DNA of 64,000 bases, taken from contig NZ_KI911563.1 of assembly GCF_000515335.1 (NCBI RefSeq), positions 3,491,158-3,555,157 of the forward strand, in the 5' to 3' direction. Origin of the DNA: Cohnella panacarvi Gsoil 349. GTDB taxonomy: Bacteria; Bacillota; Bacilli; Paenibacillales; Paenibacillaceae. Shown one piece after another: positions 23,580 to 26,414 of the stretch. The notes under the pieces are model-generated. The model was not told the origin of the DNA. It ran no database searches and saw only the letters and a program-made list of their open reading frames with translations. The position numbers were made by a program, and so were the translations under genes. The first letter of the stretch is position 1. Every line of letters starts with the position of its first letter.

Positions 23580-23608
23580 TTGACATCGATTTAGCCCTGT
23601 GATAAATT
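23580..23608 (+). promoter_or_regulatory. Promoter of the rpmG-secE-nusG operon
   Basis: A consensus TTGACA (23580-23585) is followed after 17 bases by TAAATT (23603-23608); GATAAA (23601-23606) at 15 bases is an alternative -10. It is the only promoter-like sequence between the sigH terminator and rpmG. Confidence 0.65.
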
Positions 23609-23636
23609 GTTTTAGTAACCTTAAAGGTGGCTTCTT

Positions 23637-23684
23637 ATGCGCAGGTCTGAATCATCGGCGAAACACCAGGAAATGTTGTCGTGA
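23637..23684 (+). CDS. Putative 15-residue leader peptide
   Basis: A short frame MRRSESSAKHQEMLS begins at ATG 23637, 6 bases after AAAGGTGG, a ribosome binding site nearly identical in context (AACCT-AAAGGTGGCTT) to that of nusG at 24170-24185. It stops right at the foot of a hairpin (23685-23711). It is too short to judge by composition; the case rests on the ribosome binding site and its position between promoter and terminator. Confidence 0.35.
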   Translation: MRRSESSAKHQEMLS

Positions 23685-23714
23685 CGGAACGCCGTCGCGA
23701 GAGCGATTCCGACT

Positions 23715-23761
23715 ACAGCCTTGGTTCACCAAGCTGGAGTTTCCGCTGATGGTTGTTTTTT
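23715..23761 (+). terminator. Possible attenuator ahead of rpmG
   Basis: ACAGCC (23715-23720) can pair with GGTTGT (23751-23756, one GT pair), followed by six T residues (23756-23761); inside it, CAG-C-CTTGG with a TTCA loop (23716-23736) is a competing 8-bp hairpin. Another hairpin, CGGAACGC with GCG-A-TTCCG, spans 23685-23711. The arrangement could allow conditional termination before rpmG, but the outer stem is only 6 bp. Confidence 0.4.
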
Positions 23762-23791
23762 ATGAAGTTGTTATCCCGGGAGGTGGAAGGG

Positions 23792-23941
23792 ATGCGGGTG
23801 ATCATCACTCTGGCTTGCACGAACTGCAAGCAACGTAACTATACGTCGAGCAAGAACAAGCGGACACACTCCGATCGCATCGAGTTGAAGAAGTTCTGCA
23901 GATACTGCAACGAACATACTCCTCATCGCGAGACGCGCTAA
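23792..23941 (+). CDS. rpmG: 50S ribosomal protein L33
   Basis: Small 50S protein of 49 residues near the E site. It is the zinc-containing (C+) form, with CxxC at 9-12 and 36-39 (ACTNCK, CRYCNE). The frame is open to 23753, but ATG 23792, preceded by GGGAGGTGG, gives the family length and N-terminus (MRVIITLAC). It heads the rpmG-secE-nusG cluster. Confidence 0.95.
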
Positions 23942-23959: not shown

Positions 23960-24163
23960 GTGCTGGCCAAAATGAAACAGAGCTTTGGGTCCTTTTTTTC
24001 GTTTTTCGGCGACAGTTGGGGCGAGCTTAAGAAAGTCCGTTGGCCCAGCCGGAAAGAACTTGTCAGCTACACGATCGTCGTTATCGTGACCGTGCTGCTG
24101 ATAACGGTATACTTCTGGGGACTGGACATCGGCATCTCATCCCTCGTTGAACTAGTCGTTTGA
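23960..24163 (+). CDS. secE: Preprotein translocase subunit SecE
   Basis: Essential small subunit of the SecYEG channel. 67 residues: an amphipathic cytoplasmic helix with the conserved WGELKKVRWPSRKEL and a single membrane helix (about 38-57). The start is GTG 23960 with TAGGAGG before it. It overlaps nothing and lies 26 bases before nusG, the usual pairing. Confidence 0.95.
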   Translation: MLAKMKQSFGSFFSFFGDSWGELKKVRWPSRKELVSYTIVVIVTVLLITVYFWGLDIGISSLVELVV

Positions 24164-24189
24164 CGCAGGAACCTAAAGGTGGCTTTTCC

Positions 24190-24723
24190 ATGGAGAAAAG
24201 ATGGTATGTAGTGCACACGTACTCCGGTTACGAGAACAAGGTTAAGGCGAACCTGGAGAAACGCGTGGAATCTATGGGCATGCAGGACAAGATCTTCCGC
24301 GTCCTAGTGCCGATGGAAGAAGAGATTGTCAATAAGGACGGCAAGAAGAAAACCGTGATGCGCAAAGTGTATCCCGGCTATGTTCTTGTTGAAATGATTC
24401 AGACGGACGATTCTTGGTACGTCGTGCGCAACACGCCGGGAGTTACCGGCTTTGTTGGCTCAACGGGATCGGGATCGAAGCCGACTGCTCTATTGCCCGA
24501 AGAAGTGGATCAGATTCTGCATCACATGGGCATGGAGGAGCCGAAGCCGGTTATCGACTTCGAGCTTAAGGAGAACGTCCGCGTTAAGGTCGGGCCTTTC
24601 GCTGATTTCGTCGGGTCGGTCGAAGAGATTCTTCCCGAGAAAAGCAAGCTGAAGGTTCACGTTAACATGTTCGGCAGGGAAACCCCGCTTGAGTTGGATT
24701 TCACTCAGGTGGAAAAGATATAA
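24190..24723 (+). CDS. nusG: Transcription termination/antitermination protein NusG
   Basis: Binds RNA polymerase at the clamp to modulate pausing and couples to S10. 177 residues: NGN domain starting KRWYVVHTYSGYENKVKANL, and C-terminal KOW domain with VRVKVGPFADFVGSVEEI. ATG 24190 with AAAGGTGG upstream is preferred over the in-frame ATG at 24160, which overlaps secE. Standard position before rplK. Confidence 0.97.
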   Translation: MEKRWYVVHTYSGYENKVKANLEKRVESMGMQDKIFRVLVPMEEEIVNKDGKKKTVMRKVYPGYVLVEMIQTDDSWYVVRNTPGVTGFVGSTGSGSKPTALLPEEVDQILHHMGMEEPKPVIDFELKENVRVKVGPFADFVGSVEEILPEKSKLKVHVNMFGRETPLELDFTQVEKI

Positions 24724-26167: not shown

Positions 26168-26190
26168 GATGGAGTTGAAATCGAATATGG

Positions 26191-26350
26191 ATACCGTAGA
26201 CCGTAGGTGCAGCATGTCGTCCACGCGATAACGTGCGCTTAATTTCCTACCGAGGTGTGTGGATATAATTTTCCGTTGCGCGGGATGCTTGCGTCTTGTT
26301 GCCTGGTGAAAACGATCATGCCTCCGCTTAGTCTGCGGGGGCATTATTTA
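26191..26350 (+). promoter_or_regulatory. L10 leader with terminator, autoregulation of rplJL
   Basis: The core CCGTAGACCGTAGGTGC (26194-26210) and the later TTAATTTCCTACCGAGGT (26239-26256) match the Bacillota L10(L12)4-binding leader (Rfam-type L10_leader). Downstream a perfect-length 10-bp stem, ATGCCTCCGC (26318-26327) with GCGGGGGCAT (26335-26344, one GT pair), is followed by a T-rich tail and acts as the terminator. Excess L10-L12 complex would favour termination. No gene lies between rplA and rplJ. Confidence 0.85.
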
Positions 26351-26414
26351 TGCCTCCGAAAGACGGGGACGAGTATTATATTGCGGTATATTAAGACTTT
26401 AGGAGGTGTACACA

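Follow-up and report, generated by a model that had tools for sequence, protein, structure and literature searches.

A conserved leader RNA with the shape of an intrinsic terminator precedes rpmG-secE-nusG in Cohnella

The DNA analysed here (the window, 64,000 nucleotides) belongs to a genome represented by one contig of 4.77 Mb and is Cohnella-like (Paenibacillaceae); its NusG was 92–97% identical to the NusG proteins of named Cohnella contigs and of other genomes of the genus. The gene order at the locus is sigH, promoter, leader, rpmG, secE, nusG, and all features described below lie on the forward strand. A ribosome binding site read directly from the sequence (GGGAGGTGG, 23778–23786) precedes rpmG, which encodes ribosomal protein L33 with two CxxC motifs (23792–23941; NCBIfam NF001764, TIGR01023). 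It is followed by secE, encoding the preprotein translocase subunit SecE (23960–24163; TIGR00964), and nusG, encoding transcription factor NusG (24190–24723; TIGR00922). The region around the nusG ribosome binding site (GGAACC(T)AAAGGTGGCTTTT; 24168–24189 in the window, and its counterparts in relatives) is conserved beyond the Shine-Dalgarno (SD) sequence in many Cohnella, and AGGTGGCTTG is conserved upstream of nusG in many Paenibacillus. The window opens with the 3' end of a 23S rRNA gene (positions 1–81), and the same gene cluster holds the L10 (rplJ) leader, a known attenuator, at 26176–26359 (Rfam RF00557). At the leader stretch ahead of rpmG no Rfam family exceeded its gathering score; relaxing the limit to E values of 10 brought up two families of eukaryotic small RNAs, far below their gathering scores.

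The promoter (23580–23608) is of the extended −10 type, with TTGACA at 23580–23585, a 17-nt spacer, TG before the −10 box and TAAATT at 23603–23608, and it would place the transcript start at about 23614 (23614/23615). It scored 10 of 12. Since promoter-like matches in the scanned region were not much commoner than in shuffled sequence (6 found, 4.1 expected), support for it was drawn from conservation. The promoter followed by AGTAACC was found upstream of rpmG-secE-nusG in 19/19 genus genomes searched, which bears out the promoter claimed for this operon by the initial annotation; one additional match to promoter plus AGTAACC lies elsewhere in the window's own genome. A 29-base leader pattern did not point to a regulon: of the 394 family genomes searched, 16 had a single match each, in 1 of 19 genera; the window's own leader escapes this pattern because of a 1-nt gap.

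The leader is predicted to be highly structured. The segment 23612–23800 folded at −67.2 kcal/mol (z = −2.56), and 1 of 200 shuffled sequences was equally stable. Two hairpins and a T-run had been described here before, and all three are present: inner hairpin A at 23669–23710, inner hairpin B at 23716–23736 (CAGCCTTGGTTCACCAAGCTG) and the T-run at 23756–23761. The minimum-energy fold of the window's leader combines both hairpins with a further stem, P1, which had been overlooked. In P1 a 5' arm at 23650–23664 (AATCATCGGCGAAAC) pairs with a 3' arm at 23739–23754 (GTTTCCGCTGATGGTT), so that the stem encloses the two hairpins and abuts the T-run, with one G between stem and TTTTTT. As modelled, the 3' side of P1 running into the T-run gives the leader the shape of an intrinsic terminator. 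A simple terminator scan, restricted to loops of 3–8 nt, reported no site at the leader.

Leaders were compared within the genus, using 37 genomes (36 with NusG) plus 17 named Cohnella contigs. Of the 52 loci obtained, 17 lay on the named contigs and 35 in the other genomes; together they gave 33 distinct sequences, 14 of a short form and 19 of a long form that includes the window's; L108 was excluded, as the rpmG pattern found no rpmG there. All 33 begin with a block of ~66 nt, with the general pattern AGTA...GTGG...(A/G)TGC(G/A)C...G(A/G)AT...GTTG, which in the 33-sequence alignment corresponds to 23614–23679 of the window and holds an SD-like AAAGGTGG and an ATG. Mean pairwise identity was 82% in this block, 43% in the middle part that follows it and 72% at the third codon positions of rpmG. 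The 5' strand of P1 is conserved, whereas its 3' strand drifts yet still pairs with it. In an arm-swap test, duplexes of a leader's own arms averaged −20.9 kcal/mol versus −17.6 kcal/mol with permuted 3' arms, and 0/5000 permutations were as good. Sequence kinship inflates permutation tests of this kind, and exchanging arms between the two forms is more informative: long-form 5' arms gave −13.2 kcal/mol with short-form 3' arms versus −21.5 kcal/mol with their own, and short-form 5' arms −16.3 kcal/mol with long-form 3' arms versus −20.0 kcal/mol with their own.

Pairing in the consensus structures was assessed against 500 column shuffles and slid controls; all slid controls were beaten, and most measures also beat the shuffles. 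In the short form 90.5% of cells pair (slid controls, 30.7–44.9%), and 6 pairs and 16 cells were changed on both sides versus 3.4 and 6.3 in shuffles. In the window's group (14 leaders) 94.4% of cells pair, and two-sided changes affect 6 pairs and 11 cells versus 2.8 and 3.8 in shuffles; further pair types in this group were no better than column shuffles (278 of 500). The closing stem itself is nearly invariant in the window's group, so its covariation support comes from the between-group comparison and from inner hairpin A, whose sequence varies while two-sided changes keep its pairing. These sequence comparisons support a stem conserved through compensatory change among the genus leaders; pairing in related species, raised as a check in the initial annotation, is kept.

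A T-run of at least 5 nt starting no more than 16 nt from the stem was present in 25/33 leaders (0–2 nt away in 19, 6 nt away in the other 6). It was absent in 8/33, which form one short-form clade with AATATG or AATTTG in its place. A clade that has the stem without the T-run is what would be expected if the leader were a structured 5' UTR that affects the stability or processing of the mRNA, any termination being a by-product, and many Paenibacillus leaders are likewise hairpin-rich without a T-run adjoining a hairpin. The T-run in the other 25 leaders, together with an enrichment of early hairpins followed by T-runs in the order (see below), argues against this explanation, which we regard as unlikely.

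P1 was part of the minimum-energy fold in 26/33 genus leaders and missing from it in 7 (L084, L095, L097, L100, L104, L109 and L115); the stems of L094 (−9.6 kcal/mol) and L095 (−13.5 kcal/mol) are weak. In 5 of these 7 (L097, L100, L104, L109 and L115) a competing fold wins: GAATC of the 5' arm is base-paired to GGTTC in hairpin B, and TAACC at the start of the transcript to GGTTG in the 3' arm. When GAATC:GGTTC pairing was forced in the 14 leaders of the window's group, the resulting fold ranged from 1.7 kcal/mol better to 4.1 kcal/mol worse than the terminator fold; for the window the values were −54.0 versus −57.4 kcal/mol (3.4 worse). By these calculated energies the GAATC:GGTTC fold is a candidate antiterminator, the two folds being mutually exclusive and nearly equal, as an attenuator needs. 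Short-form leaders have no hairpin B. Two other pairings were followed. A CCUG/CAGG hairpin overlapping the stem is intact in the 14 short-form leaders; inspection showed it disrupted in L099 and L100. A long-range pairing of AACCU with the rpmG SD, suggested by the consensus fold, is invariant in the short group and broken in 1/14 of the window's group.

We consider it probable that the leader is a transcription attenuator of rpmG-secE-nusG that serves the supply of SecE and NusG. RNA begun at about 23614 would carry the ~66-nt conserved block, the 3' part of which doubles as the 5' arm of the terminator stem. When free, this arm would pair with 23739–23754, enclosing the two further hairpins, and RNA polymerase would stop at the T-run near 23756–23764. 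When the arm is held, polymerase would continue into rpmG-secE-nusG. Pairing of the arm with GGTTC of hairpin B may be one way of holding it; possible triggers are translation initiation at 23637 and the action of a protein or elongation factor (NusG/NusA) on the nascent RNA. We infer that the stem acts as a terminator in vivo and that control lies in the switch from one fold to the other. A translational attenuator had been proposed for this leader. The attenuator-type arrangement, the conserved promoter and the compensated stem agree with that proposal, but the peptide is not conserved (see below). As the T-run points to control of transcription, the name is not the best one.

The proposed leader peptide is a 15-codon open frame (23637–23684) that runs from ATG at 23637 to TGA at 23682–23684, with the SD-like AAAGGTGG at 23623–23630. 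Frame and ribosome binding site are present in the window as described, but the frame is not conserved beyond its start codon, which was kept in 33/33 leaders (29 ATG, 4 GTG). Frame lengths were 4 codons in 20 leaders, 15 in 5, 19 in 4, 30 in 2, 32 in 1 and 36 in 1. On a tree of DNA slices of rpmG-secE and nusG, the 15-codon leaders (window, L088, L098, L103 and L104) were scattered rather than forming one clade; L098 paired with the 4-codon L100 at a support of 0.994, several other nodes of this tree being weakly supported. The 1-nt gap behind the frame-length difference sits in an otherwise rigid stretch. Frame length thus varies and its forms intermix on the tree, which argues that no peptide is conserved; by this comparison of sequences, the conserved element is the RNA and not a sequence-specific peptide. 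An attenuator that depends on the peptide itself, as initially proposed, would draw on the good SD of the window frame, but the same variation in length and sequence makes it extremely improbable. The context of the ribosome binding site had also been said to be nearly a copy of that of nusG. AAAGGTGGCTT does occur at both places in the window, but among the leaders it was found in 1/33, the window's own; the nusG site itself is widely kept. We therefore set aside mimicry of the nusG site, and the likeness looks like that of two good ribosome sites.

Leaders outside the genus were collected at the order and class levels. Of 118 loci, 107 were parsed and 11 were missed by the promoter pattern. 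The pattern itself demands a start of this type, so the start is common to 66/66 order-level leaders by construction. Other Paenibacillales showed the same promoter type with a start that was mostly AGGTAG..., otherwise AGGTAA..., AGTGACC... or GGGTG..., so that relatives keep an AGGUARCC-like transcript start. Early hairpins, which begin in the first 16 nt and have a T-run after them, were found in 30/66 distinct order-level leaders versus a mean of 11.7 in shuffled sequences (50 shuffles, maximum 18). The same test at the class level gave 5/23 versus a shuffled mean of 2.0 (maximum 4). Examples of such early hairpins are GCCTT..AAGGC-G-TTTTTTT (L139), CCCAT..ATGGG-GTTTTTTT (L153) and CCCT..AGGG-AC-TTTTTT (L129). 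Among the class-level leaders (L156–L212), an extended −10 promoter with an RGGTARCC-like start was observed in many Bacilli families (26/57 loci), and in 15/57 this start is directly followed by ATG or GTG; both counts are biased upward, as the promoter score included a bonus for the start motif.

Four of the genomes outside the genus bear on which gene the element serves. L050, L077, L135 and L153 have no rpmG frame before secE and retain the promoter and transcript start; L050, L135 and L153 also passed the early-hairpin test, which L077 failed. Promoter and start are thus kept without rpmG, which argues that the element serves secE-nusG rather than L33. An autoregulatory leader responding to L33 (RpmG), like other ribosomal-protein leaders, would account for the position of rpmG as first gene after the element and would have company in the L10 leader downstream. 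These four genomes argue against it, as does the similarity of the 5' block to the genome's 23S rRNA, which for five leaders lay within the shuffle range, and we consider such regulation very unlikely. Mimicry of rRNA by the leader gained no support from the same local alignments to 23S (five leaders, 60 shuffles each), a comparison that a mimic of structure only would escape. In three further leaders (L046, L048 and L130) rpmG was unrecognisable before secE, and remnants such as NHPDRMGMKN in L046 and L048 look as if rpmG were decaying.

One leader outside the genus hints at where the small frame comes from. The sequence AGCCCTAAATAGGCGTTTTTTATTATGGGTTCTGAATCACG in L063 (Paenibacillus mendelii) can be aligned by eye with AACCTTTAAGGTGGTTTCTTATGCGCAGGTACTGAATCATCG of the genus leader L087; the short hairpin of L063 fails the early-hairpin test. 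This single intermediate suggests, from its sequence, that the SD-like stretch and ATG may derive from an older arrangement of hairpin, T-run and ATG. The point matters for a version of attenuation in which a ribosome starting at the ATG at 23637, or ending a minimal frame, covers 23650–23664 and blocks the terminator, so that initiation matters and not the peptide. Conservation around the start codon fits such ribosome occupancy: ATG to GTG (in four leaders) is the sole change, GTGG upstream of the start codon is invariant, and in 33/33 leaders GAATC of the stem lies 12 or 13 nt downstream of the start codon's first base. Moreover, in the 20/33 leaders with a 4-codon frame a terminating ribosome would also cover the arm. 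The duplex with the 3' end of 16S rRNA, for which we used what we take to be its sequence, was −7.3 kcal/mol or better in 20/33 leaders but weak (−2.9 to −3.8 kcal/mol) in 13/33, and if the start-codon region descends from an older hairpin and T-run, as in L063, its conservation may reflect the RNA. We retain ribosome occupancy as a tentative possibility.

A different trigger of the proposed transcription attenuator would be NusG itself. If the terminator were NusG-dependent (with NusA), ample NusG would lower transcription of its own operon, much as NusA does in Bacillus subtilis, where, according to passages of PMC12288461, NusA autoregulates through NusA-stimulated termination in the nusA 5' leader. 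In B. subtilis, NusG is reported to promote intrinsic termination (PMC8060035), and the window NusG has Y77, N81 and T82, the pause-motif residues named in passages of PMC12288461 and PMC8060035. TTGTTT, of the NusG pause-motif type TTNTTT, lies at 23753–23758 and overlaps the terminator tail, and the four genomes without rpmG before secE keep the promoter and start. However, TTNTTT was found near the tail in 16/33 genus leaders only (window included), and we rejected it as a universal signal on this count. The words secE, rpmGB and autoregulat do not occur in the main text of PMC8060035, and passages of PMC4538822 report that NusG had no effect on termination at the rplJL leader in vitro. Feedback by NusG is therefore doubtful in our judgement. 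The nusA leader and the present one are alike in that each carries an intrinsic terminator (putative here) and stands ahead of an operon for an elongation/termination factor. They differ in gene, they are likened by description and not by leader sequence, and NusG dependence is hypothetical here. In the review passages seen, PMC12288461 among them, NusA autoregulation in B. subtilis is mentioned and none is for NusG.

The closest known arrangement by position is the rplJL (L10) leader, a short way downstream. Passages of PMC4538822 describe it in B. subtilis as an attenuator with competing folds and a reported leader peptide. Both would control transcription of a ribosomal gene through competing folds (predicted for the present leader), but the rpmG leader gave no match to RF00557 and no L10 site was identified in it. 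Leader-peptide attenuators are known for amino-acid and antibiotic-resistance genes. The tlrB leader is named in a passage of PMC12288461. As in attenuators of this kind, a small frame overlaps one arm of a terminator-type stem; unlike in them, peptide sequence and length are not conserved here. The ribosomal leader candidates presented in PMC7247131 likewise consist of conserved RNA ahead of a ribosomal-protein gene, and its main text, searched by term, contains no L33, secE or nusG, its one rpmG match being a reference title. Across two RNA-discovery papers, PMC7247131 included, the main texts were without secE or nusG, and that reference title was the sole rpmG match. By titles and abstract openings among the matches listed, no paper dealt with an attenuator in an rpmG-secE-nusG leader, which agrees with the earlier remark that no described attenuator was known here. 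Attenuators of ribosomal and nus operons are already known; the leader of rpmG-secE-nusG would be a new one, with an unusual history.

NusG and SecE are key factors in transcription and protein export. If the leader terminates as predicted, it is a small, testable element that would set the supply of both. It resembles a peptide attenuator, yet it is the RNA rather than the peptide that is conserved. A broader history can be sketched, which we consider quite unlikely as a whole. The secE-nusG transcripts of Bacilli would share a deeply conserved RGGUARCC start. This start would form the 5' arm of terminators that lie close to the promoter and evolve fast, and by way of them NusG would sense its supply and keep it within limits. 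Cohnella would have rebuilt this arrangement as a long branched attenuator, and the old hairpin and T-run would now be a ribosome-start signal that adds a translation input.

Several Paenibacillales carry a leader of another type, of the form ACCC..TTGTC....GACAAT..GGGTT-CTTTA (approximately; L062, L065, L014, L070, L127 and L149). Its tail, GTTCTTTA, resembles a boxA.
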